The notes beneath the pieces were generated by a model. The model did no database searches. It was not told the DNA's origin and worked only from the letters and a program-made list of their open reading frames with translations. This document shows positions 5,048 through 24,044 of a DNA stretch of 64,000 nucleotides, piece by piece. Within the stretch, counting starts at the first letter, position 1. Each line of letters starts with the position of its first letter. Position numbers and translations under genes: made by a program. This DNA comes from Cryptosporangium aurantiacum (GTDB lineage: Bacteria; Actinomycetota; Actinomycetes; Mycobacteriales; Cryptosporangiaceae). Location of the stretch: assembly GCF_900143005.1 (NCBI RefSeq), contig NZ_FRCS01000002.1, positions 496,001 to 560,000 on the forward strand. Direction: 5' to 3'.

Positions 5048-5118
5048 GCCGCGATAGTCCCCCAGGAAGTCCAGAGCGGCCCAGCAACGTCGCTGGTCAC
5101 GTGCTCCGGAGAGGTGAT

Positions 5119-5149: not shown

Positions 5150-5170
5150 CTGGTCAGCCGCCCCTGCGGG

Positions 5171-7872: not shown

Positions 7873-7893
7873 CCTCATGAGGAGAGCAGCAGG

Positions 7894-8376
7894 GTGGTAG
7901 CGGTCCACAACTATGAGTTGGGCCTGGTCTGGACGGGCAACCAGGGCACCGGAACCAGCGCGTATCGGGCGTACAGCCGAGCGCACGAGGTGACGGCGCC
8001 AGGTCGTCCCCCGCTGGAGGGGTCGTCCGATCCGGCGTTCCGCGGCGAAACCGACCGGTGGAACCCCGAACTCCTGCTGGTCGCCGCCCTCTCCGGCTGC
8101 CATCTGATGTCGTACCTGCACGTCTGTGTCGAGGCCGGGGTGACGGTCATCGCGTACGCGGACGCGCCCACCGGACTGATGACGCAGACGCCCGGCGGCG
8201 GGGGGCGCTTCACCGAGGTCGTGCTGCGGCCCCGGGTGATGCTGGCGCGGGAGAGCGCGGGCAAGCATGACCTCGCCGTCCGTCTGCACCGCGACGCGAG
8301 CGCGCGCTGTTTCATCGCGAGTTCGGTGAACTTCCCGGTCCGCCACGAACCGGTCGTCGAGGTAGCCGAACGCTGA
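7894..8376 (+). CDS. OsmC/Ohr-family peroxiredoxin-like protein
   Basis: 160 residues. The two conserved redox cysteines of OsmC/Ohr thiol peroxidases are C69 in LSGCHLM and C139 in ARCFIASSVNFPV. The N-terminal beta domain contains GTGTSAYRAYSR (18-29). Members reduce organic hydroperoxides at the dimer interface. Start is GTG behind GAGGAG and AGCAGG. This branch (long first helix, YELGLVWTGNQGTGTS) is closer to the actinobacterial OsmC-like proteins than to classical Ohr. It probably shares a promoter with the DMT exporter upstream. Confidence 0.88.
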   Translation: MVAVHNYELGLVWTGNQGTGTSAYRAYSRAHEVTAPGRPPLEGSSDPAFRGETDRWNPELLLVAALSGCHLMSYLHVCVEAGVTVIAYADAPTGLMTQTPGGGGRFTEVVLRPRVMLARESAGKHDLAVRLHRDASARCFIASSVNFPVRHEPVVEVAER

Positions 8377-8391
8377 CGCCGGTTCGTCGTA

Positions 8392-8418
8392 CGGCTGCGG
8401 TTCCTCAGACCGCAGCCG
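8392..8418. terminator. Two-way terminator hairpin between osmC and the island operon
   Basis: Perfect 9-nt arms CGGCTGCGG and CCGCAGCCG with a 9-nt loop, between two convergent genes. The loop holds the TGA of the minus-strand membrane-protein gene (8405), so transcripts from both sides would fold it near their 3' ends. Confidence 0.6.
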
Positions 8419-9193
8419 GATCGTCGGCGCACGTGGAGTCATCCGCCGGACGACGTGCCGCCGCCCAGATGTACTCGAACTGCTCCACCCAATACGCGTA
8501 CCAGCGCTCGCTATCGGCCCGCCTCAGCTCGAGGTGCATCCGGGTCACGGTCGATTCGTTGTGAAACCCGTGAAATTCGACGATGACCCGGCCGTGCCGC
8601 TTCTGGGGATCGACGGCGACGATGCTGAAGCCCGGGTTGTAGTCGAGCAGCCGGTGTTCGAACTTGCCGTTGACCTGCCACGTCGACACCGAACCCAGGT
8701 GCCGCAACACGGTGGTGAGCGATTCCCGGAAGTCCTGCAGCGGGTAGGTGACCGAACGGTCGAGCTGTCGCACCGCGAGCGCGACCGCGTCCTTCGCTGC
8801 CGGGTCGAGGACGACGACCCGGACATCGCCGCCCCGGGCCAGCACCGTCTTGCGCAGCAGGTCGAGGTGCGGCATCGAGAGGAAGTTGACGCCGGACGGC
8901 GCAAACACCCACACCTCGGTCGCCGCTTTCAGCCGCGCTGCGAGCGGTACCTCCTCGAACGCCGTTCGGTCGCCGAAGACTTTCGCAACCGAGCCGACCG
9001 GTTCGGGAACCGTGATCCGATACACCAGCAGCGCCATCCCGGCCAGCAGCGCGGCCCACCGGAGGTTGTCGGGTACGACGTCACCGACGACGCTGAGCGT
9101 CGCGAACGTGAGCGCGAGGGCGGCAACGACGTAGACCTCGAGATGCCGTCCGCGCGCGACGTCCCGACCCACCCTCCGGAGCCCAGTTCTCAT
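8405..9193 (-). CDS. Membrane protein with two N-terminal helices and PLD-like cytosolic domain, unknown function
   Basis: 262 residues. Two hydrophobic helices lie at about 20-40 and 45-62, followed by a cytosolic domain of about 190 residues. The segment EVWVFAPSGVNFLSM...LLRKTVLARGGDVRVVVLDP (about 92-134) has the strand-helix-strand pattern seen in the N-terminal half of phospholipase D-like folds in conflict and sensor proteins, but no HKD (HxKxxxxD) motif is visible, so it should be catalytically dead or not a PLD. Later text includes WYAYWVEQFEYIWAAARR. It starts 37 nt after the second nSTAND gene and is the last gene of the SIR2-nSTAND-nSTAND operon. Membrane anchoring suggests a sensor or effector role (inference). 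I cannot assign a family with certainty. Confidence 0.75.
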   Translation of the reverse strand: MRTGLRRVGRDVARGRHLEVYVVAALALTFATLSVVGDVVPDNLRWAALLAGMALLVYRITVPEPVGSVAKVFGDRTAFEEVPLAARLKAATEVWVFAPSGVNFLSMPHLDLLRKTVLARGGDVRVVVLDPAAKDAVALAVRQLDRSVTYPLQDFRESLTTVLRHLGSVSTWQVNGKFEHRLLDYNPGFSIVAVDPQKRHGRVIVEFHGFHNESTVTRMHLELRRADSERWYAYWVEQFEYIWAAARRPADDSTCADDPAAV

Positions 9194-9230
9194 ACCGCGA
9201 CGTTCCTCTCCACGGAGCGTGCTTCACGGG

Positions 9231-11033
9231 TCACGCGGCTGGTTCGCCGATCGCGGTCACTGTCGCCAGCGCCTGGTCCCGCATGTCGAGAACGTCCGTG
9301 CGGCGAGCCAGGTCCGGCGAGATCCGTACCGCGCTGTCGAGGTCGTCGAGTGCGGCGTCCGGTTGGCCGAGCAGAAGAAGCGTGCGGGCTCGCCCCAGCA
9401 GTGCGTCCACCGCGCCGGGCTCGACCGTCAGCACATCGGTGAGGACGCCGTGTGCCGCCTGCGGTTGCCCGGCCCCGCAGAGCGCATCGGCCAAATCGAC
9501 CTTGAGCTCGGGACTTCCCGGCGATACACGCGCCGCCACCTGTAGATCGGCGATCGCGTCGACGAACCTGCCGCACCGCAGGTGCAAGCTCCCGGTGGCG
9601 GCGAGCAGACGGCCGACGGCCGTGAGGTCCTCCATTGTCGCGAACAGCCCCGCCGCCTCGCCGTACCGTCGCTCGGCCTCGCCCGTCCGGCCCTGCCGCA
9701 CGGCGATATCCGCCAGCAGCGAGGTCGCGTCAGCGCGCAGCCGGACGTCCCCATCAGCACTGAGCCGAATCGCCTCGACCGCACGATGGGCGGCGAGCTC
9801 GGGATCCCCGGCGGCCAACGCACCCTCAGCTGCCCGGAGTTGACGCTGCGCGGCTCCGAGTCCCTGGCTCGGGGTGAGGCCCGCCATTGCCAGGATCGGC
9901 GCCACCAGCCGGTCATGGGACAGCCAGTACCAGCGTGATCCGGCCCGGTAGTCCACGACCAGGATGTGTCGGCGCTCGAACTCGCGGGCGACCGCCACCG
10001 GCACACCGGCGGTCTCGGGTGTTCCCTCATAGACCGTCCCCCGGGTACCGAGGTCGGTGACGAACGCCTGCGCGAGCCACTGCCACAGTTCGGACTCCGG
10101 GATTCCGCTCTCCGCGCTGACCTCCTCAACCGCGCTTACACAGAAGTCCCCGAGCGACACCCCCACGTCGCCGTGGGCATTGCGGACTCCGAGGGTGATA
10201 GTCCGAGCCGACTCCGGCAGCGCGCGCCAGAGCGCGGTGCAGGCCAGCTGGAGGTGCAGCGGCTCGATCGCGTCGCGACCGCCGCTCCGCAACTCGGCCA
10301 CGAGCTGTTCGGCCACGCCCGCGGCGTACGACCGGGTCGTTCGCTCCACCGGTTTCGTGACGGCTTCCAGTGCCGCTTCGCTGTCCAACGGCTCCAGCGG
10401 GAAGTGGCTATCCGGGCCGCCGCCGAGCGCCGGTAGATACGGCTCGAGGTCATCGAGCGCTTCCTCGCGCACCGCCAGCAGCAGGTGGACGTCCGATACC
10501 GACGCGACCGCCTCGGCCAGCTCGCCGAGAAACTCTGCATGGCATTGTCCGCGATCGGGAACGTCGACGAACAGCTCCTCGAACTGGTCCACCGGAGCCA
10601 AGAGCGGCAGTCCGGCACCGGCCTCCTCGCGTCGCCGCCGAAGGAATCCGACGATCGTCCGGCCGGCGAGCTGTTCCGACGGCGTGTTCGGTGACCAGGA
10701 CGACAGCAGCGCACGCTGATACGGGTTGCCGTTCGGCAGACGACCGGACCCGAGCGAAATACGGCCGACCGGGAGAACCACCGCGGGTCGGTGTGGACGC
10801 CCGACGCCGAACAGCGGGATCACTCCGGCCCGTAACAGGGACGTCTTTCCGATTCCGGAGGCTCCGTGGAGCACGACGAGCCGGTTCCCGATCCATCGGC
10901 GCCGGAGTGCCTCTGCCTCTTCGGCCCGGCCGAAGAACCGGTCGTGGTCGTCCGTGTTGAACGGGCGACTGCCCAGGTAGGGACCGAGATCGACCGACGG
11001 CGTCGAGATACCTCGGTTCAGGTAATCCGTCAT
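9231..11033 (-). CDS. nSTAND1-type NTPase with C-terminal TPR repeats
   Basis: 600 residues. An N-terminal adaptor-like stretch YLGSRPFNTDDHDRFFGR leads into a STAND NTPase: Walker A GASGIGKT (57-64), Walker B PVDQFEELF (147-155), and the arginine finger/sensor strand LLLAVREEALDDL (about 188-200). A winged-helix-like region (SHDRLVAPIL) follows, then about 200 residues of alpha repeats with TPR spacing. STAND proteins act as signal-triggered oligomerising switches; nSTAND members are common in bacterial anti-phage and kin-conflict systems. The ATG overlaps the stop of the upstream paralogue (ATGA). Compared with that paralogue it keeps the sensor arginine. Confidence 0.88.
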   Translation of the reverse strand: MTDYLNRGISTPSVDLGPYLGSRPFNTDDHDRFFGRAEEAEALRRRWIGNRLVVLHGASGIGKTSLLRAGVIPLFGVGRPHRPAVVLPVGRISLGSGRLPNGNPYQRALLSSWSPNTPSEQLAGRTIVGFLRRRREEAGAGLPLLAPVDQFEELFVDVPDRGQCHAEFLGELAEAVASVSDVHLLLAVREEALDDLEPYLPALGGGPDSHFPLEPLDSEAALEAVTKPVERTTRSYAAGVAEQLVAELRSGGRDAIEPLHLQLACTALWRALPESARTITLGVRNAHGDVGVSLGDFCVSAVEEVSAESGIPESELWQWLAQAFVTDLGTRGTVYEGTPETAGVPVAVAREFERRHILVVDYRAGSRWYWLSHDRLVAPILAMAGLTPSQGLGAAQRQLRAAEGALAAGDPELAAHRAVEAIRLSADGDVRLRADATSLLADIAVRQGRTGEAERRYGEAAGLFATMEDLTAVGRLLAATGSLHLRCGRFVDAIADLQVAARVSPGSPELKVDLADALCGAGQPQAAHGVLTDVLTVEPGAVDALLGRARTLLLLGQPDAALDDLDSAVRISPDLARRTDVLDMRDQALATVTAIGEPAA

Positions 11034-12817
11034 AACGACTCACCCTCCGCCCGGCGTCGGGCGACGCCCAGGGCATCCGCGACGTCGGCCCTCGCCGCCG
11101 CCGCAGGGTCGAACCTGATGGCGTCCGCGAAGTCGGCCAGGGCCGAGCGGTATTCGTGCAGCTCGACGAGGATCAAACCGCGCTCCACCAACGCGCTCGC
11201 TTCCCCCCGGTACGCGCTCAGATAGGCGCTCAGAACCGCTGCCGATGCCCTCCGCTCACCAGCGGATCGGAGCGCACGAGCGAGGTTGATCGTGATCGCC
11301 GCGTCGCCGGGATTCGCCTGCGAAGCCGCCTGCAGTTCCTCGATCGCCTGCGTCACCCGATCGGTCGCCAGGTAGAGCCGGCCGAGTTCAGCTTGCACTC
11401 GACCGATCGACATCGGATCGCCGAGGGCCGAGAACTGCTGCACGGCGAGCACGAGGTGCGTCTCGGCTTCCAGATGATGTCCGATGCGGAACGCGACGAC
11501 GCCACGCAGAAACGCGCCCTCGGCACGGACGAGCGAGTCGTCACCGCTGGTGTCGACAGCCTCGGCGGCACGCCGCTCCGCCGTCGGCAGATCGCCGGCC
11601 TTCAGTGCCTGTTCGGCTTCCCAGAGCAGCTCGGCCGGTAACCGAGAGGGTCTGAGCCACGGTCGGCCACCCAGCCGGATCGGCTCCACCAAGCGGTCGT
11701 GGGTGATCTCGTACCAGCGCTGCCCATCTTCCGCGACCGAGGTGATCAGGGAGCGACGGAGCAGCACCTCGACAACCGCCGTCGGAACGTCGCTGTCCGG
11801 GAGTTCGTCGACCGGGACCGGTCGTCGTGTCCCGATCTCCGTGATGAAGGTGCGAGACAGGATCTCCCACACCCACCCCTCCGGGACATCGCCCGCGTCA
11901 GCCGCAGCAGCAACGATCTCCGCGCAGTAGGCCCGGAGCACGTGGTGCCCGTCGACCTCGGGCAACAGATCGGTCACCCGGATCACGTCCGCGTGGCGTC
12001 GCGCCCAGGCCGCCGCGCAGCAGACCTGCAAGAGCATCGGGTCTACCGGTTCCTCGCGGTTCTCGATCTCGCCGCGCAGCACGGTGGAAGTCGCGACCTT
12101 CGCCCGTTCCACCAGGACGGTGAGGGCATCCGGAGCGAATTCGATCCCGGTGCCGACGAGCGGGCGGGTCGCTGCCTCGATCGCGTCCTCGGGCGTCAGC
12201 GAGAGCAGTCGGTACCGCCGGTGCGGCAGAGCATCGAGCACGTCCTCGACCGCCATCAGATCGCCGATCTGTTCGGTTCCGATCGACACCAGCAGATGCA
12301 CCCCGGCCACCTCCTCCAACGCCTCGGCGAGTAGCTCGATGAAGTCCTCCCGGTGATGCCGGGAACGACTACCACCGGTGAACAGATCCTCGAACTGATC
12401 GATAGCGCAGAGCAATGGCCTGCGTTCCGCTTTTCCGACATCGAACTGCTGCACATACTGGTTCAGGACGACGTCCAGTGGCTGGCCAACCCATTCGACG
12501 TCCGGAAACCAGGTGGACAGGAGCGTTTCCAGGTACGGGTTGGAAAGGTTTGTCGCGCTGGGCGGGCCCGGCGCGATCCGTCCTACCGGCAATACCGCCG
12601 CAGTGTCCGCATAGTCCACTGACAGCGCGGGCAGAACTCCAGCATTCAGTAACGAACTCTTGCCCACCCCGGAACTCCCGAAGAGCACCAGGAGTTGTGA
12701 ACCGAGCCACAGATCCACCACCTCCCCGATTTCGCGGGAACGTCCGTGAAATCGGTCCCGGTCGAACTCGGTGTACGCGCGGAGTCCGACGTATGGGTCC
12801 GTCGGGTACGTAGTCAC
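11030..12817 (-). CDS. nSTAND1-type NTPase with C-terminal TPR repeats (paralogue lacking sensor arginine)
   Basis: 595 residues from a GTG whose last two bases are the start of the SIR2 gene's TGA (GTGA overlap). It begins VTTYPTDPYVGLRAYTEFDR. Walker A is GSSGVGKS (47-54) and Walker B AIDQFEDLF (138-146). The position that holds VREE in the neighbouring paralogue reads SIGTEQIGDL (about 178-187), so the usual sensor arginine is missing. TPR-like helices fill the last 190 residues. An open frame extends upstream to 13045 but that part is antisense-like sequence inside the SIR2 gene. The two paralogues share architecture, length and the DRFxGR entry motif, so they arose by tandem duplication and may form a hetero-oligomer in which one member has lost full ATPase control (inference). 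Confidence 0.87.
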   Translation of the reverse strand: MTTYPTDPYVGLRAYTEFDRDRFHGRSREIGEVVDLWLGSQLLVLFGSSGVGKSSLLNAGVLPALSVDYADTAAVLPVGRIAPGPPSATNLSNPYLETLLSTWFPDVEWVGQPLDVVLNQYVQQFDVGKAERRPLLCAIDQFEDLFTGGSRSRHHREDFIELLAEALEEVAGVHLLVSIGTEQIGDLMAVEDVLDALPHRRYRLLSLTPEDAIEAATRPLVGTGIEFAPDALTVLVERAKVATSTVLRGEIENREEPVDPMLLQVCCAAAWARRHADVIRVTDLLPEVDGHHVLRAYCAEIVAAAADAGDVPEGWVWEILSRTFITEIGTRRPVPVDELPDSDVPTAVVEVLLRRSLITSVAEDGQRWYEITHDRLVEPIRLGGRPWLRPSRLPAELLWEAEQALKAGDLPTAERRAAEAVDTSGDDSLVRAEGAFLRGVVAFRIGHHLEAETHLVLAVQQFSALGDPMSIGRVQAELGRLYLATDRVTQAIEELQAASQANPGDAAITINLARALRSAGERRASAAVLSAYLSAYRGEASALVERGLILVELHEYRSALADFADAIRFDPAAAARADVADALGVARRRAEGESL

Positions 12818-13704
12818 GAGGTACCGCCGCGTCTGGTCAACTCCGCGAAGAACGACTCTGCTGTCCCCCAGTAGACGCTGATGTTCCAGTGCGCGAGATA
12901 CCGCTCCAGATAGGTCTTCGCGTGCTGCGCGGTCTCCCTCCGGCGATCCGACAACGGCGGTAACAACTGAATGCTCACGTGCCGCCGCCATTGCACGCGC
13001 GCGGTCGCCTTGAACAAGCCGTGGAACAGCGCCCGGAACGTCCAATCGTGCAGGCTGTAGCCGACGAACAACAGCGGCCGATGCGTAATCGCCGGGTAGA
13101 GAGGGCCGGGGAGCAGTCGCCGGTACTGGCTGCGCTGGTCGCGTGCCAGGTTGAGCATGAATTCGAGGTAGTCGTCCTCGGTGACGACCAGCGTCCGTGC
13201 ACTGTGGAAGCTGCCGTGCAGGTGATAGACGAGCGGTTGAGGCACCGTGAATTCAGCATCGCGGGGCAGGCTGACGTCGTCACGCGACCTGCCGGTGGCC
13301 GCCCACGGGCACAAACCGGTCACCGCCTTCCGGTTGACCGCGGCGAGCGCAGACGCCATGTAGTCGTCGTAGTTGGTGGTGAGGTAGATCGGTAACGGGA
13401 ACCCCGCCAGAGCCGAGTGAGGCTCCGCCGGGTCGCCACCGCGCGGCGGCGAGCAGCTGCGTAACCGCCGGCAGACCCAGTCCTTGAAGTACACGGCATC
13501 GCCGGTGACGCTCACCGCGTACTGACTCACGCGAGCCAGGTCCTCACGGTCCTCGAGGAACGGATAGTCGTACCGTAGTGCGATTTCCCGGCTGAGCTCA
13601 CGGGCGGTCGGCAGAGTGCCGCTACAGGCCCCTGCGCCGATGAACGGAGTGCAGTCCCCCCGGGACAACTGATCAATCAACCTCTGCCAGTCAGCATCGT
13701 CCAC
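12814..13704 (-). CDS. SIR2-like domain protein (probable NADase effector)
   Basis: 296 residues. The SIR2-fold signatures are the NAD-binding GAGAC loop (FIGAGACSG, 21-29), the conserved asparagine in LTTNYDDY (108-115), the catalytic-type histidine in YHLHGSF (160-166) and VGYSLHDWTF (about 215-224). This set is typical of SIR2 domains in defence proteins (ThsA, DSR, SIR2-STAND and related systems), which hydrolyse NAD+ to stop growth. Start is GTG with GGGGGG upstream. It is the first gene of the operon with two nSTAND ATPases, so those ATPases may sense a trigger and activate this NADase. A protein-deacetylase role is less likely because the zinc-ribbon cysteines of classical sirtuins are absent. 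Confidence 0.87.
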   Translation of the reverse strand: MDDADWQRLIDQLSRGDCTPFIGAGACSGTLPTARELSREIALRYDYPFLEDREDLARVSQYAVSVTGDAVYFKDWVCRRLRSCSPPRGGDPAEPHSALAGFPLPIYLTTNYDDYMASALAAVNRKAVTGLCPWAATGRSRDDVSLPRDAEFTVPQPLVYHLHGSFHSARTLVVTEDDYLEFMLNLARDQRSQYRRLLPGPLYPAITHRPLLFVGYSLHDWTFRALFHGLFKATARVQWRRHVSIQLLPPLSDRRRETAQHAKTYLERYLAHWNISVYWGTAESFFAELTRRGGTS

Positions 13705-13995
13705 CTACGCCCCCCAATCCGATCCAGATGCCGCCTCGCGTCGAACCCAGCCACGGCCTGGTCGACACGGTCCGACAGCCGACCGGTCAGCCCTGAGGGT
13801 AAGTGATGATCGGTAGTACCGGACGGCGAAGCAGTGAACGCTCATCCCCCGCCGTAACTCCTATCCCGACAAAGTTCGCAGCAATAACGCCGGGGCCGAA
13901 TATGCCACTCCAACACCAAAACCCTTTCAGTACCGGAACACGCACTAGTCGGCAGTTAGAGTGCACCTAAGTCACCCGCCGATCCGGGAGGGCCC
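13705..13995. promoter_or_regulatory. Divergent promoter region between SIR2 operon and fxsT
   Basis: 291 nt between the start of the SIR2 gene (minus) and fxsT (plus). It must carry promoters for both. It is visibly less GC-rich than its surroundings at 13850-13970. No clear -35/-10 pair or palindromic operator was identified by eye. Confidence 0.45.
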
Positions 13996-16560
13996 ATGAC
14001 GACGATCGCCGAGCGGGGTACCGGCGGGGGCGTGCCGGCCATCTGGGGCAACGTCCCGCAGCGCAACCGAAACTTCACCGGGCGAGAGACACTGTTGGAA
14101 CGACTTCGGGATCAGATGAGCGGCGATCAGGACGTGACGGCCGTTCTGCAACAAGCGCTCCAAGGACTCGGTGGCGTCGGGAAAACACAACTGGCCATCG
14201 AATACGCGTACCGCTTCAGCTCGTCCTACGACATCGTATGGTGGGTCTCAGCCGACCAGTCTGTCCTCCTCCGGTCCTCCTTGGCTGCACTCGCGCCACG
14301 CCTCGGACTATCAGTCGCTCCCGGGCGGGTTGAGGACGCCCTGGCTGCGGTGCTCGATGCGCTGCGCCGCGGGGAACCTTACAAGCGTTGGCTGTTGATC
14401 TTCGATAACGCTGATCAGCCGGAAGCAATCCGCGACCTAATTCCCAACGGACCCGGCCATGTACTCGTGACATCGCGAAACCACCGGTGGAAAGGCGTCA
14501 CCGAAACTATCGAGGTGGATGTATTCAGTCGAGCGGAAAGTCTTGACTTCCTCCGCAAGCGTGTTCCGGATATCGATGAGACAGCGGCTACCCAACTCGC
14601 CGACGAACTCGGCGACCTCCCGATCGCGCTCGAACAAGCTGCCGCCCTTCAGGTCGAGTCCGGGATGTCGGTCGGCGATTATCTCGACTTGCTGCACGAC
14701 GCCGGTAGCCGTCTCCTCGGAGAGAACAAGCCGACGGATTACCCGGTACCGGTCGCCGCTGCCTGGAGCCTGTCGATGGCCCAGGTCCGGAAGCACATGC
14801 CGCTCGCGATGGACCTGCTGCGCCGGTGCGCCTACTTCGGACCGGAGCCGATCCCGCGCGACCTGCTCACCCGCGGCCGATACGTACTCACATCGCCGTT
14901 CGGTGAGGCCCTCCGCGACCCGCTCACGGTCAGCCGCGGCATGCGGGAGCTGGGGCGGTATGCGTTGGCTCGGATGGACAACAGCCGCGGCACCATCCAG
15001 GTGCACCGACTGATCCAGCGCCTGGTCCGGGACGAATTGACGCCGGACGAGGCGAACGAAATGCAGCACGACGTCCACCTTCTCTTGGCATCGGTGGACC
15101 CGCTGGACCCGGACGAGCCGAACACCTGGTCCAGCTATGCCGAGCTGATCGTGCACGTCGGACCGTCCGACGCGGCGCGCTGCACCCACCCCGACGTCCG
15201 CCGTCTAATCCGCCACCTGGCGCGATACTTGTACAACGTCGGTGACTACACGAACTGCATGCGCGAGATCGATTTCGCGCTCAAGCAGTGGGAAACCGAC
15301 TCCGGCGAGGACGATGCCGACGTGCTCCGGCTCCGCAACCAGAAGGCTGACGTGCTTTGGGCACTGGGCCAGTACCCGGAGGCGTACGAGATTCGCAAAT
15401 TGAACGTCGAACACGAGGCGACCGTTCTGGGCGAAAATCACGAGGAGACGCTGCAAGACCTTAATGGCCGAGGTGCGGATCTCCGGGCGCGCGGCGAGTT
15501 CGCCCAGGCGCTCATCCTGGATCAGGACTCGCTGGACCGACACCGGCAGGTTTTCGGCCGGGATCACACCGCCACATTCAACGCAGCCAACAACCTTGCG
15601 GTCGACTTCGCGCTGAACGGTCGTTACAAGGAAGCTTTGAGGCTAGACGAGCAGACGTACGAGGAGCGCCGCGACTTCTACGGCCGTGACGACGTTCCGA
15701 TCGTCGCATTCACCCTCAACTCGATCGCGCGGGACTACCGGCAGGCCGGACACCACTCCGAAGCGCTGGAACGTGCCCGAGTCGCGAACAACGCATTCGA
15801 GGACCTGGTTCGCCAACGCATCTTGTACCCCGACCACGCTTGGGTTCTGCTACAAACCCGCAACTACTCGATCGCCCTCCGGACAGTCGGCGAGGTCCAC
15901 GCCGCCCTGCAGCTCGCACGCACGGTCTACGCGGACTACCAGCGCAGTCGCAGTTCCGGGCCTCGCCATCCGGACACGTTGGCGGCGGCTGTCACGTTGG
16001 GCAACGCGCTACGGTCGGCGGAGCAGTACCAGGAAGCCGAGGAGCTGATCGAGGAGACAGTCGAGCGCTACCGTGCGGTCTTGGGAGACCACCCCTACAC
16101 GCACGCCTGCGCGGTGAACCTGGCAATCGTGCGCCGTTATCTTGGCGTCCAGTCATCCCAACCTGGACTGGTCGACAATGCTCGCGGTCTCCTCGAGGAA
16201 GCCCAGGCGGCCCTCACCAGGTTGCTCGGCGACCAGCACCATTACACGCTGACCGCGGCCAACGCGCTGGCCACCACTTGTTCTGCGAGTGCCGACATAG
16301 ACCGCGCCTACCAACTAGACGCCGAGGTGCTACCGAAGTTCCGGGACCTGCTCGGCGACGAGCATCCGCACACCCTGGCCGCAGCAACTAACCTGGCCGT
16401 GGATCTCCGCGTCCTTGACCGAATCGGGGAGGCGGACGAGCTACTGACGGCGACGCTCGAGATCTACCGGCGCACGCTGGGGAGCGATCATCCGGAAACG
16501 CTCGCCGCGGAGACCGGAACGGAGCGGATCGCGGTCGATTTCGATCCCACCCCGATCTGA
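13996..16560 (+). CDS. fxsT: FxSxx-COOH system NB-ARC/TPR protein
   Basis: 854 residues. The N-terminus (VPAIWGNVPQRNRNFTGRE) is the usual opening of the FxSxx-COOH system tetratricopeptide protein. The NB-ARC NTPase has a P-loop GLGGVGKT (57-64), Walker B WLLIFDNAD (about 133-141), VLVTSRN and the GLPL-like DLPIALEQAA. About ten TPR-type helical repeats fill residues 420-840 (for example NNLAVDFALNGRYKEAL). ATG at 13996 follows GGGAGG. The family accompanies FxsA/FxsB peptide systems and is thought to sense or present the modified peptide; the function is not settled. Its last 73 nt overlap, antisense, the 3' end of the HExxH gene. Confidence 0.9.
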   Translation: MTTIAERGTGGGVPAIWGNVPQRNRNFTGRETLLERLRDQMSGDQDVTAVLQQALQGLGGVGKTQLAIEYAYRFSSSYDIVWWVSADQSVLLRSSLAALAPRLGLSVAPGRVEDALAAVLDALRRGEPYKRWLLIFDNADQPEAIRDLIPNGPGHVLVTSRNHRWKGVTETIEVDVFSRAESLDFLRKRVPDIDETAATQLADELGDLPIALEQAAALQVESGMSVGDYLDLLHDAGSRLLGENKPTDYPVPVAAAWSLSMAQVRKHMPLAMDLLRRCAYFGPEPIPRDLLTRGRYVLTSPFGEALRDPLTVSRGMRELGRYALARMDNSRGTIQVHRLIQRLVRDELTPDEANEMQHDVHLLLASVDPLDPDEPNTWSSYAELIVHVGPSDAARCTHPDVRRLIRHLARYLYNVGDYTNCMREIDFALKQWETDSGEDDADVLRLRNQKADVLWALGQYPEAYEIRKLNVEHEATVLGENHEETLQDLNGRGADLRARGEFAQALILDQDSLDRHRQVFGRDHTATFNAANNLAVDFALNGRYKEALRLDEQTYEERRDFYGRDDVPIVAFTLNSIARDYRQAGHHSEALERARVANNAFEDLVRQRILYPDHAWVLLQTRNYSIALRTVGEVHAALQLARTVYADYQRSRSSGPRHPDTLAAAVTLGNALRSAEQYQEAEELIEETVERYRAVLGDHPYTHACAVNLAIVRRYLGVQSSQPGLVDNARGLLEEAQAALTRLLGDQHHYTLTAANALATTCSASADIDRAYQLDAEVLPKFRDLLGDEHPHTLAAATNLAVDLRVLDRIGEADELLTATLEIYRRTLGSDHPETLAAETGTERIAVDFDPTPI

Positions 16561-18341
16561 CTCCCACCGATCCATGCCGCCAGCGTCACGGGATCGGGTG
16601 CGCTGCCCGAGCACCGCTCGACGCACTCGTGTACGGCATGGACGATCTCGGGGGCGGTCTGCAGCCCGATGCCTGCCGGATGCGCTGAGGCGAGCACCGC
16701 GACGCTCAGACCCGCCCAGGCCTCGGGCATGCGAAGGTCGGCCCCCCGATACGCTTGCAATGCCGCTTCGGGCTCGTCCAACACGAGCAGCACGTCCGCG
16801 GGAGTGACACCTGGAATCGACGCCACGTCGCCGCGCAGGGCCGCGAAGCGTTCGGGGTCCCCGAGTCGGATCCGAGTAAGTCGAACGCGAGGCGACTGGG
16901 CAAAGCGTTGCGTAACGGGCACGATCTCCACCGGAACGGCTCGGCCCGCCTGTCGACCCTCCCGCCAGTCAGCGCAGAGATCCGCGATCGCGGACGGATT
17001 CGCGCGAAGGTTGCGTACCCGCCACAGGATGCGAAGGTCCTCCGCCGCGCGGTCAGCCCACTCCTGAAACGGCCCCGGCACTCGCTCAGCGAGCAGCGTC
17101 CCGAGGCGGGAGCGGATGCCTTCCAGGAAAACCGTCCCTGCCCGAGACAGCCGCTCCGAAGTCAACAGGTCGGCGACAGCTCCGTCCACGCAACGGCGCC
17201 ACAGCGCGAACTCAAACTGGGCCAGTTGGCCCAGCGGCCCGGTGTCGGTTGTGCGCTGCTCCTGCCACAGATCGATCAAACCGAGGTATGCGTAGATCCC
17301 GTGTAGCAGGCCACGAGCCGGCCGGGGATCCGACCTCCACGGGGCGTAGAAGCGCTGGCTGGCGTCCTCGTCCACCACAGGAATCAGGTCGAGCAGCGCC
17401 CACAGCACGGAGTGCTGATGTTCGTGCACCAGGGCTTCGGCCAGGCTCCGTCCGGTGGCAGGTTCGGTAAGCGCTATCGCGCCGATGCTCTCTCGGGGCG
17501 TCGCACTAAGTTCTGCTGCGTTGTCCGCCCCCGCGATCGGTGTCAGGCTCGTCACGCCGATGCTGACCGCCGCGGCACGCTCGCCGTGATGGCGGACGAG
17601 CAGCTCCCAGCCAGCGTCGAGAGCAGCCTGCCAGCGTGTCACCTGCTCGTCAGTGAGTCGTCCGATAGCGCCGAGGCCCTGCCGGTCCCGGAACGGGTCG
17701 ATGTCGTCGAGCTCCAGTTCGATCACCCGCCCGCCGGCCTGGCTACGCAGCCGACGCAGCGGCCACCACTGCTCGAATCCCGACCCTGGTGTGTTCACCG
17801 GAACCTGCAGCGCGCTTCCGGCGACCCGTACGGCGAGGGCATGGTCTCCGGGAGCCCACGACGCGCTGCCCCATGCCGACGGGGCGTCGGTCAGCAGTAG
17901 ACCGAGCGTCGGCAGCATGACCGTGCCATCGGCTCGGGATCTGACACGCACGTCGAAGGCCTCACCCGCCTGAAACGCCGCTGCGGCGGCAATCGCACCG
18001 AAGTATCCGATGTCGTCGGAGAACGACGACGCGTCCGCGTCGTCCTTCTCCGGCACAGCGCGCAGGCAATGGAGGAGCCAGCCGCCGGTCTGCGGCTGAC
18101 GGATCAACGCCTCCGCCACTTTCGGCGCTCGGCGCTGAACCGCGGTGAGCACGGAGCGGGCATGCTCGGTGCCTGCCTCCGAGAAGAGCCGCGGAGCGCG
18201 CCTCTCCACTTCCCCGAGCAGTGCGTGGATAGCGAGCAGACGGCGGCTCAATTGACCGACGGCCAATGCGCCGTCGATCCGGGCTATACCCGCGCCCAGG
18301 TGGTGAAGGTCCTCGGGGGAGACGCTTACGGCGTGCATCAC
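16488..18341 (-). CDS. HExxH-motif peptide-modification protein (aKG-HExxH peptide beta-hydroxylase family)
   Basis: 617 residues. The motif LVHEHQHSVLW (about 303-313) supplies HExxH, and a conserved histidine follows about 40 residues later in RGLLHGIYAYLGL, the pattern of the HExxH domain found with FxSxx-COOH peptides. Despite the protease-like motif, characterised relatives are iron- and 2-oxoglutarate-dependent beta-hydroxylases of RiPP precursors. The first 300 residues are an alpha-helical domain of unknown role. The start overlaps the fxsB stop (TAGTG); an ATG three bases later (18338) is an equally good start. The C-terminal 24 codons are antisense to fxsT. Likely job: a second modification of FxsA after or before FxsB. 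Confidence 0.87.
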   Translation of the reverse strand: MMHAVSVSPEDLHHLGAGIARIDGALAVGQLSRRLLAIHALLGEVERRAPRLFSEAGTEHARSVLTAVQRRAPKVAEALIRQPQTGGWLLHCLRAVPEKDDADASSFSDDIGYFGAIAAAAAFQAGEAFDVRVRSRADGTVMLPTLGLLLTDAPSAWGSASWAPGDHALAVRVAGSALQVPVNTPGSGFEQWWPLRRLRSQAGGRVIELELDDIDPFRDRQGLGAIGRLTDEQVTRWQAALDAGWELLVRHHGERAAAVSIGVTSLTPIAGADNAAELSATPRESIGAIALTEPATGRSLAEALVHEHQHSVLWALLDLIPVVDEDASQRFYAPWRSDPRPARGLLHGIYAYLGLIDLWQEQRTTDTGPLGQLAQFEFALWRRCVDGAVADLLTSERLSRAGTVFLEGIRSRLGTLLAERVPGPFQEWADRAAEDLRILWRVRNLRANPSAIADLCADWREGRQAGRAVPVEIVPVTQRFAQSPRVRLTRIRLGDPERFAALRGDVASIPGVTPADVLLVLDEPEAALQAYRGADLRMPEAWAGLSVAVLASAHPAGIGLQTAPEIVHAVHECVERCSGSAPDPVTLAAWIGGSQIGVGSKSTAIRSVPVSAASVSG

Positions 18342-19558
18342 TACCTACTCAGGAGTGGCGCCAGGTCTGCGGTCATTTGGCGCGAGATGTGGGCTATCAG
18401 GGTTTTCAAATCCGGACAATATACAGATGGATTGTTAAAGCCGGAGCCGCTGCGATACCGATGCGGATAATATCCACCCCCACAGATGCGTACGATCGGG
18501 CATTTTTGGCACTCTTTCGACAAACCGGCCACTCCAAGCTGCCTACTCGCAATAGCCGGATGGCGGAGCGCGTCACCGAACGGGTTGCGGGAGACATGCA
18601 GCCCTGTTGCCGCAGCTCCGTCGTACGCGGACTTCAGCGCGTCCACCTGTTCGAGGGACCCATCGGTCTCCACGACGATCAGCGTGGACGGGGTCAAGCC
18701 GACCGACTCCGCCCGACTCGCACCACCCAACAGCAGATGGATGATCTCCTCGAAGATGCGTATGCGCGGCCGCGGACTCGCCGCGTGATACCACTGGTCG
18801 AACACCGCGACCAGCCAGTCCGCATAGGGGGTGGCCTCGTCCGGCGTGCGGCGGGGAGGTGGGCAACTCCAGTTGCCGTGCGGCAGCAGGAGGTCAACCA
18901 GAGGCGGCGCGAAATCCACGAGATGCCGGTAGGTCTCCACCGGATCGGCATCCAGGTCGATGGTGGTCAAGATCCCGCGATAGAGGCGACGGTACGGTGG
19001 AGAAGCGAGGACGCGGAGTCCTTTCGCGACCTCCTGGTAACTTCCCCGGCCGTCGAGATAGATCCGCCGTCGGTCATGATCCGCAGGAATCCCGTCGAGC
19101 GAAACGCCGACCCCGATGTTGTGCCGAAGGATCACGTCGAGATTCGCCGGTGTAAGCAGGATGCCGTTCGTTTGCAGCGAAAAGTCAATATTGCACTTGG
19201 GATTCACTGCTGCCCGAATTGTCGCCGCCAGTTCAGCCAGGAAATCGGCGCCAGCCAGCAAGGGCTCGCCACCATGCAGGACAACCCGAACAAACTGGAG
19301 CTCGTACTGGTCAACGTGCTCGCTTATTCGGCAGGCAGTCTGCTGCACCGTTTCCGACGACATACGGAATGGCCGATCTCGCCAGGTTTGATCAGCCATG
19401 TGGTAAACGTAACAATAAGTGCAAGACAGGTTACAGCGCGCATGTACCTTGAGAATGAACTGCCGGAATGGCAGCTCAAATGAGTCTGCTTTGACAGATC
19501 CCGGGAGTGGGACGACCGCCACCTCGGCACCGCTTCTGGTCGAGTCCTGCGACGTCAT
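18341..19558 (-). CDS. fxsB: FxsB family cyclophane-forming radical SAM/SPASM peptide maturase
   Basis: 405 residues, family length. The radical SAM cluster motif is RCNLSCTYCYVYHMADQTW (41-59, ligands C42, C46, C49), with the LHGGEPLL motif near 95. The C-terminal SPASM/twitch cysteines are in ECQKCPIVRICGGGYYPHRY and PSVYC, a run characteristic of FxsB. Known FxsB enzymes join the aromatic ring of Phe to the Cbeta of Ser two residues on, making a three-residue cyclophane in the C-terminal FxS of FxsA. It starts 30 nt after the fxsA stop with ATG at 19558. The stretch around 18400-18490 is unusually AT-rich for this genome, which suggests recent acquisition. Confidence 0.95.
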   Translation of the reverse strand: MTSQDSTRSGAEVAVVPLPGSVKADSFELPFRQFILKVHARCNLSCTYCYVYHMADQTWRDRPFRMSSETVQQTACRISEHVDQYELQFVRVVLHGGEPLLAGADFLAELAATIRAAVNPKCNIDFSLQTNGILLTPANLDVILRHNIGVGVSLDGIPADHDRRRIYLDGRGSYQEVAKGLRVLASPPYRRLYRGILTTIDLDADPVETYRHLVDFAPPLVDLLLPHGNWSCPPPRRTPDEATPYADWLVAVFDQWYHAASPRPRIRIFEEIIHLLLGGASRAESVGLTPSTLIVVETDGSLEQVDALKSAYDGAAATGLHVSRNPFGDALRHPAIASRQLGVAGLSKECQKCPIVRICGGGYYPHRYRSGSGFNNPSVYCPDLKTLIAHISRQMTADLAPLLSR

Positions 19559-19588
19559 CCGGAGGCCGTCCGCGTGCGGTTCCTGCCG

Positions 19589-19792
19589 CTACAAGCTCGA
19601 GGTGAAGCCAGCCGCCGTGTCGCCGACAGTCTGGGCTTCCTCCCAGATGCGCTGAATCGATCGGCCGAGGACGGAGTCCAGCGGGAGTGCAGCATGGTCG
19701 ACCAGAGCCCTGACCTGGTCCAAATCCAGGCCCTGCAGATCGATCAGCTCGCCGTCGAGAACATCGACAGCGGCCGCCGCCCCCTCTGACAC
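19589..19792 (-). CDS. fxsA: FxSxx-COOH cyclophane peptide precursor
   Basis: 67 residues from a GTG at 19792 preceded by GGAAGGTGGG. The leader contains VLDGELIDLQGLDLDQVRAL (11-30) and ends with the core AGFTSSL-COOH; F63 and S65 form the FxSxx-COOH motif that defines the family. FxsB, encoded 30 nt downstream, should crosslink F63 to S65. The open frame continues upstream to 19918, but the added residues are arginine-rich and unlike any FxsA leader. The leader has the Leu-rich helix typical of the family and no cleavage motif I can name. It is the first gene of fxsA-fxsB-HExxH. Confidence 0.92.
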   Translation of the reverse strand: MSEGAAAAVDVLDGELIDLQGLDLDQVRALVDHAALPLDSVLGRSIQRIWEEAQTVGDTAAGFTSSL

Positions 19793-20038
19793 TGTCCCAC
19801 CTTCCGCGCGGGTACCGTCGCGCGTTCGGTCCCAACGAAGCTCATCAGCAAAAAGACGACTCGCGCGCACTCTCTCGCGCACGAGAAAAACGGCCCGGTC
19901 CGCGGAGTGATCATACACACCACCGGTTGACTTCCGACACCCGAACGCGCCGGGGATCTGCGTTGCATTTCAGAGCTAAATTGAATACTCGCCCATACCC
20001 AGAGTGCTTCTAGCGCGCATGCCGGGTTGTCAACCAGC
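19793..20038 (-). promoter_or_regulatory. Promoter region of the fxsA operon
   Basis: 246 nt between the pucR stop and fxsA, both on the minus strand. It is AT-rich for this genome (for example 19970-19990). Reading the minus strand, TATGAT (about 19911-19916) is a good -10 match with no obvious -35. I saw no terminator for pucR in it. Confidence 0.35.
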
Positions 20039-21712
20039 TCAAAGCCCACGAATTTCCAAGACGCGCAGCGCGAGGGCCAAGTCCAAGCGGAGCGCGGCGT
20101 CGTCGGTGAACGGTCCGACGAGCTTCTCCAGCTTGGTGATCCGGTATCGCAGCGTGTTGTAGTGGAAGTGCAACCGCCGCGCCGCCTCGGCCACCGTGCA
20201 GTTGGTCTCGAGCAGCACCGCCAGCGTCCGGCGCAGGTCGGCGTTCTCCGGCGTGTCCGCCGCCAGCTCGCCGAGAACCTCCTCGACAAAACCACGCAGC
20301 TCCGCCGTGTCCGGGATCAGCGACAACAACCGGTGCACACCCAGGCGGTCGAAGCTCGCCCTGGCACCGTCGCCGTGCAGCCGACGCCCGATCCGGACCG
20401 CCTTCCGCGCCTGCTCGTACGCCCGCGGCAACTCGTGCGGAGTCAGGGCCGGACGCGAGATGCCCAGCGAGAACGAGCGCCGCCCTCCGCCCCCGTCGCC
20501 GACCACCTGCCGCACCAGCTCGTTGACGGCTCGCTCGACGGCGTCCGCATTCGAACCCGCGGACGGGAGACCGAGCAGGACCACGACCTCCTGGTTGAAG
20601 TTGACGACCGGCGCTTTCGAATCGCGCCACCGCACGACCGACTGCCACGCGGTGGCGAACCGCTCCTGCACCGGACGCAGCTCCGGCACCGACCCGGTCG
20701 GCACCGTCACCGGGTCCAGCTCCGCGACCACCACGACCAGCGGCCGTTCCACGTCCCAGCCGAGCGACCGGGCGTGCGCCGCCGCGGTCGGCACGTCCTC
20801 GATCCGGCCGGTGAGCAGGTCGCGGAGGAAGTCCGCCCGGTACTTGCCCTCGACCGCATCGATCGCCAGCTGTTTGGTCACCGCGAGCGCGGCCACGGTG
20901 GCGGCGCGCTCCAGCGAGTACACGTCCGCGGCGTCCAGCGGAGCGTCGGAGAACGCCACGATCCGCCCGTGGTCGATCCGCCCGGCGACCACCGGCACCG
21001 TCGTGTGGAAACCACCCTCGTGCGGCCGGACGCCGGTCGGCTCGTCGTCCACCCGGAACCGGCCGGTGGAGTCGAAACAGCCGGTGTTCTCCAAACCGTC
21101 CTGGTCACCGGCCCGAGCGGACACGCGGCCGTCCGGCGTCGTGACGATCACCGGGCCGCCCAGTATCCGGGTCAGCTCGGCCGCCAGGTCGTTCAGCCCG
21201 CCGCCCTCCAGCACGACGCTGACCAGCGCCCGGTGCACCTCGTCCGACCGGGCCAGCACCGCGGCCTGCCGGTGCAGCAGCGCGCTGAGCACCTCGTTGA
21301 GGATGTCGTCGAAGCCCACTGCCTCGGCGACCTCGATGATCGGGAAGCCCCGCCGGTCGGCTTCGGCCAGGACCTCGGCCGGCAGCTCGTCCAGGTAGCG
21401 GTGCAACTTGACCGCGAGCGCGGCCAGGCCACGTTCGTCCAGCTCGCGAACCAGGTCGACGAGCTCGGAGGGGTTGTTCCGCAGCGGGTAGCCGGTGGTG
21501 AGCAGCAACTCGTGCGGCTTCACCCAGGGCAGGATGTCGGGCACCTCCATGACGTTGAGCCGCTGCACGACCCGGTCGAGACCGGCCTCGCCGGCGAGCA
21601 CCCGCGCGCCCGTCAACGAGTTCGCCTCGAGGACGTCACGAACCGGCAACCCCACCGGGGACGCCGTCAAGTTGGCCGAAGGCACCCGGCCATCCTTGGC
21701 AATTCTTCCCAT
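20039..21712 (-). CDS. PucR/CdaR-type transcriptional regulator
   Basis: 557 residues from ATG (MGRIAKDGRVPS). Domain order: PucR N-terminal ligand domain (about 20-145, including VLAGEAGLDRVVQRLNVMEV and ELLLTTGYPL), a GAF-like/CdaR GGDEF-like middle (about 165-420) and a C-terminal PucR helix-turn-helix (about 490-550: CTVAEAARRLHFHYNTLRYR). Family members control purine, allantoin or sugar-acid catabolism. It is transcribed away from the allH-allF-allG operon with 57 nt between start codons, which points to direct control of that operon, probably by a purine breakdown product. The frame is open far upstream on the minus strand but that part is antisense to the all operon. Confidence 0.92.
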   Translation of the reverse strand: MGRIAKDGRVPSANLTASPVGLPVRDVLEANSLTGARVLAGEAGLDRVVQRLNVMEVPDILPWVKPHELLLTTGYPLRNNPSELVDLVRELDERGLAALAVKLHRYLDELPAEVLAEADRRGFPIIEVAEAVGFDDILNEVLSALLHRQAAVLARSDEVHRALVSVVLEGGGLNDLAAELTRILGGPVIVTTPDGRVSARAGDQDGLENTGCFDSTGRFRVDDEPTGVRPHEGGFHTTVPVVAGRIDHGRIVAFSDAPLDAADVYSLERAATVAALAVTKQLAIDAVEGKYRADFLRDLLTGRIEDVPTAAAHARSLGWDVERPLVVVVAELDPVTVPTGSVPELRPVQERFATAWQSVVRWRDSKAPVVNFNQEVVVLLGLPSAGSNADAVERAVNELVRQVVGDGGGGRRSFSLGISRPALTPHELPRAYEQARKAVRIGRRLHGDGARASFDRLGVHRLLSLIPDTAELRGFVEEVLGELAADTPENADLRRTLAVLLETNCTVAEAARRLHFHYNTLRYRITKLEKLVGPFTDDAALRLDLALALRVLEIRGL

Positions 21713-21769
21713 GCCGACCACCGTAGACGCGGACTTACGGTCGGCCAGACGAAAGGGGGTGAGGTCTTC

Positions 21770-22552
21770 GTGCTGCCTGCCGCCGCTTCCGTGTCGCTGG
21801 CCCCGGTGCTGAGCGGGCCGGTGCGGACCGTCACGGTCGCCGCCTCGCTCTCTCGTGCGCTGTACCTCCGGACGCCCGATGCCGAGTCCCCCGCGCTGTG
21901 CCTCGCGTCCGCGGATGCGGTGCGGGTCCCCTGCGCGGTGGTGCTCGGTCCCGGGGTCGCGGTTCCGGCCGCTGCGGTCGGCGCGACCGCCTCGGTCGGC
22001 GAGGGCCGACTGGAGATCGGCGACGTCTCCGTCGCCGTCACCCGGTGGTGGCGTCCGGCCCGCCCACGGGTGCACCTTCTTTCTTCGGACGCCAGGCAGC
22101 GGGCACTTCGCGGGCCGGCGCCGCACTTCGGGACGGACCTGGACCTCGGCGACCCCGCCGGCGCGGTGCGCACGCTGCTGGGACGCGGTGCGGGGCTGAC
22201 ACCGCTGGGAGACGACGTCCTGGCCGGCGCGCTGGTGACGCTCACTGCCGCGCGGCACCCCGCCGGGCAGGTGCTGGGCTCGGTGGTCTCCGAGGAGCTG
22301 GCAGCCCGACCGGGGGCCACCACGTTCGTCTCCGCCGCTCTGCTGGCCCAGGCTGCCCGCGGCGAGTGCATCCCCGAGCTCGCCGCCGTGCTCACCGACC
22401 CCGCCGACCGGCTGGAGCCCACCGTCGACGCCCTCCTCCGGGTCGGGCATTCGTCGGGGCTGGGGCTGCTGCACGGCGTCCGAATGGCGTTGTCTTTTCT
22501 GACCGAAGCCGAACCGAAGGGATCGCAGAGTGACCGCTTTGCACCATATTGA
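21770..22552 (+). CDS. allH: DUF2877 protein, AllH-type subunit of oxamate carbamoyltransferase
   Basis: 260 residues from GTG at 21770 (VLPAAASVSLAPVL), with GGGGGTGAGG ending 5 nt upstream. The DUF2877 hallmark LLGRGAGLTPLGDDVLAGAL is at about 140-159. E. coli YlbF (AllH) of this family is one of three subunits of oxamate carbamoyltransferase, which converts oxalurate plus phosphate to oxamate plus carbamoyl phosphate at the end of anaerobic allantoin breakdown. The 3' end overlaps the fdrA gene by 23 nt. The symbol is given by homology and context; activity in actinobacteria is inferred. Confidence 0.85.
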   Translation: MLPAAASVSLAPVLSGPVRTVTVAASLSRALYLRTPDAESPALCLASADAVRVPCAVVLGPGVAVPAAAVGATASVGEGRLEIGDVSVAVTRWWRPARPRVHLLSSDARQRALRGPAPHFGTDLDLGDPAGAVRTLLGRGAGLTPLGDDVLAGALVTLTAARHPAGQVLGSVVSEELAARPGATTFVSAALLAQAARGECIPELAAVLTDPADRLEPTVDALLRVGHSSGLGLLHGVRMALSFLTEAEPKGSQSDRFAPY

Positions 22553-24044
22553 GCTGCGACGCGGCACGTACCGCGACTCGGTCCAGCTGCTCCAGGTCAG
22601 CCAGGCCGTCGGCGTCCTCGACGGGGTGACCGGCGCGATGGTCGCGATGGGCACCGAGCTCAACGTCGAGCTGATCACCGGAATGGGCTTCCGCGTGCCG
22701 GACGACGCCACTCCGGGTGACATGGTGGTGGCGATCGCCGCGGTCGACGAGGCCACCCGGGACGCCGCGCTCACCGCGCTGGAGTCGGCGCTGGCGGCCA
22801 AGACACCGCAGGCCACCGGCGACAGCACGCTCCCACCTCCCCGTACCGTCGGCGCAGCAGTGAACACCGCAGGGGCGAACCTCGCCCTGATCTCGACCCC
22901 CGGCCGGTACGCGTTCGCCGACGCCGTGGACGCCCTGGACGCCGGGGCGTCGGTGCTCGTCTTCAGCGACAACGTGCCGGTCGAGCAGGAGGTCGCGCTC
23001 AAGGATCTGGCTGCCGCCCGCGGACTGCTCGTGATGGGCCCGGACTGCGGTACCGCGGTCGTCGGCGGCGCCGGCCTCGGGTTCGCCAACGTCGTGCGGC
23101 CGGGACCGGTCGGTCTGGTCGCCGCGTCCGGCACCGGCGCGCAGCAGGCCATGACGCTGCTGGACGCCGCGGGCGTCGGCGTCTCGCACTGCCTGGGCGT
23201 CGGCGGGCGCGACCTGTCCGGCGTCGTCGCCGGCCGCTCCACGCTGGCCGCACTCGACGCGCTGGACGCCGACCCGGCGACCGAGGTGATCCTGGTGATC
23301 TCCAAGCCGCCCGCCGACGAGGTGGCTTCCCGGGTCCGCGCGCACGCTTCCGGCCTGTCCAAGCCCGTGGTGTTCGGGCTGCTCGGCAGCGGTCGCCCCG
23401 ATCTCACCGCGGTAGTGACCGAGGTGCTGGGCGTGCTCGGCCGCTCGGCGCCGTCGCCCTGGCCGCGGTGGTTGCCGTCGGAAGAACCCCGTGACCTGGT
23501 CGCGCCGTTCGCGGCTGCCTCGGGGAGCCTGCGCGGCCTGTACAGCGGCGGCACGCTCTGCGACGAGGCGATGCTGATCGCGTCAGCCGCGCTCGGGCCG
23601 ATCGCGTCGAACATCCCGCTGGAACCCGCGTGGGCGTTGGGTGCCGATCTGAAGGCCGACGGTCACGCGATGATCGACTTCGGCGACGACACGCTGACCG
23701 CCGGACGCCCGCACCCGATGATCGATGGGACGCTGCGCCTGGAGCGGCTGGCTACCGAAGCCGCCGACCCGTCCTGCCGCGTCGTCCTGCTGGACGTCGT
23801 CCTGGGGCACGGGGCGCACCCGGATCCGGCCGCCGAGCTGGCGCCCGCGATCGCGTCCGCACTGGTCGCGGCCGACCGTCCGTTCGACGTGGTGATCGCG
23901 CTGGTCGGCAGCGGGGGCGACCCGCAAGGGCTGGAGCGCCAGGCTGCCGCGCTCCAGGGCGTCGGAGCCCGCGTGTTCTCGTCCAACGCCGAAGCCGCTC
24001 GCGAGGCCGTCGCGATCCTGAACCCCGCCGAGGTGACCGAATGA
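22530..24044 (+). CDS. allF: FdrA-family protein, AllF-type subunit of oxamate carbamoyltransferase
   Basis: 504 residues from GTG at 22530 (MTALHHIELRRGTYRDSVQL). The Rossmann/CoA-ligase-like features are LLVMGPDCGTAVVGGAGLGF (about 165-184) and ASGTGAQQAMTLLDAAGVGV (about 193-212), both typical of FdrA. In E. coli FdrA is AllF, a subunit of oxamate carbamoyltransferase. It sits between the DUF2877 and DUF1116 genes with overlaps of 23 and 4 nt, the same three-part set as in E. coli though in H-F-G order. No carbamate kinase is visible in the window. Confidence 0.92.
   Translation: MTALHHIELRRGTYRDSVQLLQVSQAVGVLDGVTGAMVAMGTELNVELITGMGFRVPDDATPGDMVVAIAAVDEATRDAALTALESALAAKTPQATGDSTLPPPRTVGAAVNTAGANLALISTPGRYAFADAVDALDAGASVLVFSDNVPVEQEVALKDLAAARGLLVMGPDCGTAVVGGAGLGFANVVRPGPVGLVAASGTGAQQAMTLLDAAGVGVSHCLGVGGRDLSGVVAGRSTLAALDALDADPATEVILVISKPPADEVASRVRAHASGLSKPVVFGLLGSGRPDLTAVVTEVLGVLGRSAPSPWPRWLPSEEPRDLVAPFAAASGSLRGLYSGGTLCDEAMLIASAALGPIASNIPLEPAWALGADLKADGHAMIDFGDDTLTAGRPHPMIDGTLRLERLATEAADPSCRVVLLDVVLGHGAHPDPAAELAPAIASALVAADRPFDVVIALVGSGGDPQGLERQAAALQGVGARVFSSNAEAAREAVAILNPAEVTE

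Follow-up and report, generated by a model that had tools for sequence, protein, structure and literature searches.

The window analysed here, a stretch of 64,000 nucleotides from Cryptosporangium aurantiacum, contains a 67-codon frame that is very probably an FxsA-type precursor, a new member of a known peptide kind, within a mobile block of SIR2, STAND and peptide-maturation genes. The block as a whole is best explained if modified FxsA is an intracellular ligand of a TPR ATPase that controls SIR2 in a mobile, NAD-cleaving immune block, a reading to which we give a probability of about 0.58. The position of the precursor directly before SIR2 or STAND genes, together with insertion as one unit, makes the role of such cross-linked peptides testable as a single question, namely whether modification controls NAD depletion; if it does, RiPP chemistry would be tied to NLR-type immunity.

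The precursor gene

The fxsA gene occupies positions 19589..19792 of the reverse strand and encodes a 67-residue product, VSEGAAAAVDVLDGELIDLQGLDLDQVRALVDHAALPLDSVLGRSIQRIWEEAQTVGDTAAGFTSSL, in a frame that runs from GTG to TAG and ends in AGFTSSL. FTSSL is followed at once by the stop codon (19591-19589), giving an F-x-S-x-x-COOH terminus, and fxsA lies upstream of fxsB, 30 nt (19588-19559) from its ATG at 19558; FxsB scores above its own family cut-off. The sequence thus bears out the GTG-started 67-codon frame ending AGFTSSL, 30 nt ahead of fxsB, that the original prediction had described (19589-19792, reverse strand).

The frame scores 21.7 bits (E 1.8e-4) with the FxsA model TIGR04268, below the cut-off of 28. 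When the whole genome is scanned with this model the fxsA place reaches 15.9 bits (E 0.17) and ranks seventh among 17 weak matches; matches at E <= 1 also occur in 8 of 14 control genomes, and an FxsA paralogue that adjoins another FxsB in this genome, on contig C6, is likewise under the cut-off at 23.1 bits. A leave-one-out profile built from 11 relatives, with the window excluded, gave fxsA 42.3 bits and E 6.7e-11 among 18,416 frames from 93 loci, with both leader and core aligned, the weight of the core being biased because the seed relatives were chosen partly for their F-x-S-x-x end. Under the same profile the runner-up in window positions 5001-25000 has E 16, and that interval holds no further FxsA-like frame that could be a second precursor. 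The leave-one-out profile and the gene context therefore carry the assignment, and support the earlier claim of an FxsA-type RiPP precursor with an FxSxx-COOH end; given the sub-cut-off score, we name the frame FxsA-type and not a model-certified member of TIGR04268.

The weakest point of the frame assignment is its start codon, for which the GTG at 19792 is a plausible choice. The open frame extends upstream to another GTG at 19918, which would give 109 aa. By codon position the G+C content is 0.75/0.43/0.78 in the 67 codons and 0.76/0.55/0.57 in the upstream part, and several relatives have frames of 54-67 codons from stop to stop, which sets their starts, like GTG 19792, near the L-[IVP]-D motif conserved in the family. 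Relatives' lengths and codon pattern thus favour GTG 19792, and AAGGTGGGACA ahead of it could serve as a ribosome-binding site.

The peptide family and its predicted core

An iterated search of the 93 loci returned 85 FxsA-like frames, the window's included, and at least one such frame in 69 of the 73 loci that have both HExxH and TPR genes, a figure that may include drift because a few frames of the iterated set, such as those in L080 and L144, are without the core. The family shares the leader pattern L-[IVP]-D-[LV]...L..L, after which 80 of 82 aligned rows have a Phe and 65 of 72 a Ser. Exact FxSxx endings are found in 37 of the 85 frames and close variants in 7; the other 41 end otherwise, some with tails or two motifs, so that a free C-terminus is not universal among FxsA frames.

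In the window the predicted core is A61-G62-F63-T64-S65-S66-L67 (19592..19612, reverse strand), with F63 encoded at 19606-19604 and S65 at 19600-19598. From the conservation of Phe and Ser, and because a Phe-x-Ser cyclophane fits both the family description and a ChlB-like maturase, FxsB likely makes a single three-residue cyclophane between Phe63 and Ser65. In 44 of 62 readable cores Phe and Ser are separated by Gln (20), Asn (14) or Asp (10); the intervening residue is Thr in 6 cores, Ser in 6 and another in 6. If relatives are beta-hydroxylated at this residue, Thr64 could not be modified in the same way.

Maturation enzymes

FxsB, a predicted cyclophane-forming radical SAM/SPASM maturase of 405 aa (18341..19558, reverse strand), scores 483.4 bits with TIGR04269 against a cut-off of 370, so that the predicted FxsB partner of the peptide is confirmed at family level. 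It matches ChlB (PDB 9gm3) with E 4.7e-81 over residues 33-395, and C42, C46 and C49 of its CxxxCxxC motif align with ChlB, as do its SPASM cysteines. FxsB is also matched by maturases that act on other cyclophane peptides (XyeB, GrrM, DarE), and a search sensitive to close relatives confirmed no viral counterpart.

The adjoining gene (16488..18341, reverse strand) encodes the other expected partner, a 617-aa aKG-HExxH-type protein with HEHQH at residues 306-310, the sequence PWRSDPRP and H347, which scores 153.5 bits with TIGR04267 (cut-off 40), the NCBIfam family of aKG-HExxH-type peptide beta-hydroxylases. It aligns with PDB 22nu and 22ob over residues 63-421 (E 6e-30 for 22nu) and with ChlH (PDB 8s5f) over residues 299-361 (E 7e-10), and the HExxH motif is kept in all 78 aligned proteins, the window's among them. 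Residue 347 (window 17301-17303) is a His that, in the alignment with ChlH, falls on the His of GLLHA, and we infer that it is a metal ligand; across the 78 proteins this position is His in 13, Gln in 64 and Asn in 1, and the His/Gln split follows the precursor core in no obvious way. In the accessible text of PMC12636437, which cites a 2024 paper, Asp and His are hydroxylated by ChlH once the cyclophane has formed. The likeness to ChlH and this account fit an aKG-dependent enzyme, which would probably oxidise the peptide after FxsB has acted. Hydroxylation is only one option, because the same text describes HExxH enzymes able to cut the peptide backbone oxidatively.

The inserted block

These genes belong to a block of eight genes and 11,662 bp (8383..20044) between an OsmC-like gene and pucR: FxsA, FxsB, aKG-HExxH, NB-ARC-TPR, SIR2, two nSTAND-TPR genes and a 262-aa protein. 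The original prediction took in the precursor, FxsB and the HExxH enzyme, and the block holds SIR2, nSTAND and NB-ARC genes beyond these. The bounds of the insertion follow from congener G002 (L222), in which a match to window positions 5171-8382 and a match to 20045-21868 are separated by 24 bases. From the xanthine permease to pucR the distance is 13.4 kb in the window and 1.8, 3.5 and 3.6 kb in three congeners without the block at this site. Congener G001 carries a related gene set at a different place in its genome (L031), and this set includes the 262-aa gene. Together these comparisons indicate that the block was inserted as a single unit and that it is mobile. At the insertion site, congeners G001 and G003 carry different sequence of about 1.8-1.9 kb, for which reason the purine-catabolism locus may be an insertion hot spot. 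There is no tRNA in positions 5000-22000, and among the repeat families listed (20 of at least 60 direct and 25 of 95 inverted) no pair lies at both block edges.

The NB-ARC/TPR protein (854 aa, 13996..16560, forward strand) is convergent to the FxsA-FxsB-HExxH operon, scores 927.3 bits with the FxSxx-system model NF040586 (cut-off 300) and has Pfam NB-ARC and TPR matches. The SIR2-like protein (296 aa, 12814..13704, reverse strand) matches PF13289 (E 1.6e-24) and the PADLOC ThsA model (57.3 bits), and among PDB structures it most resembles 7uxt ('USG protein'), KomC, which is an NADase, and ThsA, with E values from 5e-7 to 7e-4. It has both N111 (TTNYD) and H163 (HLHG); across 24 family members the Asn is kept in 21 and the His of LHG in 19, so the catalytic-type residues are absent in 3 to 5 of these relatives. 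Two nSTAND1-TPR NTPases follow on the reverse strand, one at 11030..13045 (PF20703, E 7.1e-39), whose listed frame begins inside the SIR2 gene and whose true start is probably later, and one at 9231..11033 (PF20703, E 8.2e-33). At the block edge the 262-aa protein (8405..9193, reverse strand) has no Pfam match and relatives in 2 of 92 other loci (L111, and L031 within the congener's related gene set).

Linkage across genomes

The association of these genes recurs in relatives. The order FxsB, HExxH, TPR (reversed), SIR2, nSTAND is found again in several of them, including three Acrocarpospora species (L009-L011). The 93 loci comprise 80 regions, those three loci, nine regions from the same genome and congeners, and the window; the 80 regions cover 81 of 112 FxsB places, the 27 weakest outside the genome itself having been dropped. 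Up to the four best FxsB, six SIR2 and three nSTAND candidates were scored per genome, and the tallies below are lower bounds, uncorrected for relatedness among the genomes. Relatives' TPR genes were recognised by similarity to the window's, and NF040586 was applied to the window's and two other TPR genes of the same genome.

In the 394 genomes of the class that were searched, the SIR2 family (E <= 1e-30) occupies at least 24 places in 19 genomes and 10 genera, and a repeat search of 148 genomes returned only places already known. Twenty of the 24 lie within 7 kb of FxsB, each with an FxSxx-type TPR gene in the same stretch, and the remaining four adjoin such a TPR gene, so that TPR is near all 24; in L177 and L194 the TPR and SIR2 genes are separated by an nSTAND gene. 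At E <= 1e-60, the nSTAND family occupies at least 38 places in 30 genomes, 33 of them within 7.4 kb of FxsB. Four of the five more distant places partner the four FxsB-distant SIR2 genes, and the fifth is near a contig end, where the 15 kb retrieved contain none of FxsB, TPR and SIR2. Distance was measured to the best 59 of the 112 FxsB places, and no contig bearing one of the remaining 53 holds any of the five exceptions. FxsB was found in 79 genomes, and these include each of the 19 with SIR2 and each of the 30 with nSTAND (P 8e-15 and 6e-24, kinship ignored).

The precursor itself is tied to these genes. The next same-strand gene after the 85 FxsA frames is FxsB in 46, SIR2 in 11, nSTAND in 9, HExxH in 2 and none of these in 17. 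The frames directly ahead of SIR2 (11 in 10 loci, L093 contributing two) are 19-196 nt from it, as extrapolated from alignments, and in all 20 frames preceding SIR2 or nSTAND the TPR gene is divergent on the other side. That FxsA stands directly before SIR2 or nSTAND even away from FxsB links the peptide to the immune genes.

SIR2 and the TIR-like FxsC

TIR-like FxsC (NF040588) is listed by NCBIfam as part of FxSxx systems, and no FxsC-like frame of at least 120 aa was detected in window positions 5001-25000 at E 1e-4. Across the 73 loci with HExxH and TPR genes, SIR2 occurs in 21 and an FxsC-like frame in 23 (two of them weak), 29 have neither, and none has both within the stretch (P 6e-5, kinship ignored). 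L076 and L097, whose FxsC-like frames are the weak ones, have SIR2 further out; counting these, co-occurrence is seen in 2 loci against 7.2 expected (P 0.003, kinship ignored). The exclusion test is soft because the genomes are related. TIR and SIR2 domains both act as NAD-cleaving effectors in bacterial immunity, which makes it a reasonable reading of the gene content that FxsC and SIR2 exchange as effectors. SIR2 is absent from the fetched stretch in 52 of the 73 loci, and no conserved replacement effector was found in the TPR-nSTAND gap of SIR2-less loci among shared frames of at least 90 aa (E 1e-6); the frames shared in these gaps read as SIR2, antisense to SIR2, or parts of TPR or nSTAND genes.

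Relation to known systems

The block shares with FxSxx-COOH/FxsA-FxsB systems (TIGR04268, TIGR04269, TIGR04267, NF040586) the FxSxx end and an FxsB, an aKG-HExxH and an FxSxx_TPR protein above their cut-offs. Unlike those systems, it has a precursor below the model cut-off and no FxsC detected nearby, with SIR2 and nSTAND-TPR genes instead, and we regard it as a putative SIR2 variant of the FxSxx conflict system. ChlB and ChlH (PDB 9gm3, 8s5f) provide a homologous cyclophane synthase and aKG-HExxH domain; in the descriptions available the two are fused in one protein, whereas the window has two genes and a different precursor. Thoeris ThsA combines SIR2 with a SLOG sensor and acts alongside ThsB; judged on the SIR2 protein, the window differs in that its 296-aa product contains SIR2_2 only. 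In Avs5, SIR2 and STAND are fused in one protein, and in the window they are separate genes. Avs5 (AVAST type 5; PMC12931631) resembles the block in joining SIR2 with a STAND ATPase, to which, as far as the accessible text describes Avs5, the window adds a peptide and two maturation enzymes.

The VMAP ternary peptide modules of Kaur et al. 2020 (PMC7159879) share an FxSxx peptide, a radical SAM/SPASM gene, a metallopeptidase-like gene and an AP-ATPase with TPRs, in the main text of that article. Unlike the ternary systems as that text describes them, the eight genes include no recognised vWA, MoxR or VMAP gene. The same main text, as distinct from the figures, contains neither SIR2 nor sirtuin. 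A literature search that took in few subscription papers yielded no description of a SIR2/nSTAND block variant of FxSxx, and the only biological role that the texts it reached state for FxSxx peptides is the one proposed in PMC7159879.

Proposed mechanism and alternatives

In the mechanism that we favour, FxsB would tie Phe63 to Ser65 and the aKG-HExxH enzyme would then oxidise the peptide. Rather than leaving the cell, modified FxsA would bind a TPR ATPase as a signal, guard or safety catch. Sensing would likely fall to the NB-ARC-TPR protein and the two nSTAND-TPR ATPases, with the SIR2 protein as the likely NAD-cleaving effector, and the contact between peptide and ATPase would set when SIR2 is unleashed. 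We hold only tentatively a more specific version, in which the TPR ATPases of an NLR-like, NAD-depleting cassette read the cross-linked FxsA end, which determines whether SIR2 fires, with FxsC and SIR2 as interchangeable NAD-acting effectors.

Other readings assign the peptide a different part. Kaur et al. 2020 (PMC7159879), in the main text, proposed that the FxSxx peptide is a toxin or signal, connected it with VMAP systems and AP-ATPases, and assigned its release to the HExxH gene, viewed as a protease. The corresponding reading, in which the modified peptide is cut from its precursor and itself serves the conflict system as toxin, signal or amplifier, seems to us unlikely in this block. 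Its release could be achieved by the HExxH protein, given the oxidative backbone cleavage ascribed to an aKG-HExxH enzyme in PMC12636437, but the proposal took HExxH as an ordinary metallopeptidase, whereas the accessible descriptions present ChlH as a hydroxylase, and the block holds no further recognised peptidase.

It is quite improbable that FxsA gives rise to an ordinary secreted RiPP, antibiotic or signal, with the SIR2 and STAND genes as immunity genes or bystanders. Some products of the cyclophane maturases XyeB, GrrM and DarE, which match FxsB, are secreted. However, no transporter or leader peptidase was recognised among the eight genes, the 262-aa one having no family match, and FxsA stands directly before SIR2 or nSTAND in 20 of 85 frames, in addition to the insertion of the block as a unit. 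An internal alarm or switch is accordingly a more likely role for the peptide than that of a secreted antibiotic. Hardly credible is the reading in which the frame arose by chance and the true precursor lies elsewhere: the score is below the TIGR04268 cut-off and relatives' precursors may sit 1.5-6.5 kb from fxsB, but the leave-one-out E value and its distance from the runner-up rule out a chance open frame.

Additional FxsB and TPR loci

The genome that holds the window has five FxsB loci and one SIR2 gene of the window's family. The four other loci (L027-L030) encode FxsB proteins 44-53% identical to the window's. L027 combines a pair of FxSxx TPR genes with an FxsA whose C-terminus is FGNIP, L030 has an AAC(3)-like gene and a TIR-like FxsC, and L028 and L029 show no HExxH or TPR gene of the window's type in the 18 kb taken.

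In eleven relatives (L069, L072-L074, L077, L079, L081, L082, L090, L095 and L096) a second TPR gene lies about 6 kb upstream of FxsB, with an FxsA-like frame at its 3' end, and all of these except L096 have a further FxsA-like frame ahead of FxsB. The frames before FxsB in L074, L069 and L072 carry two FxS motifs per precursor, for example AGFTSSAGFNSSLSAP, which suggests two cyclophanes per peptide.
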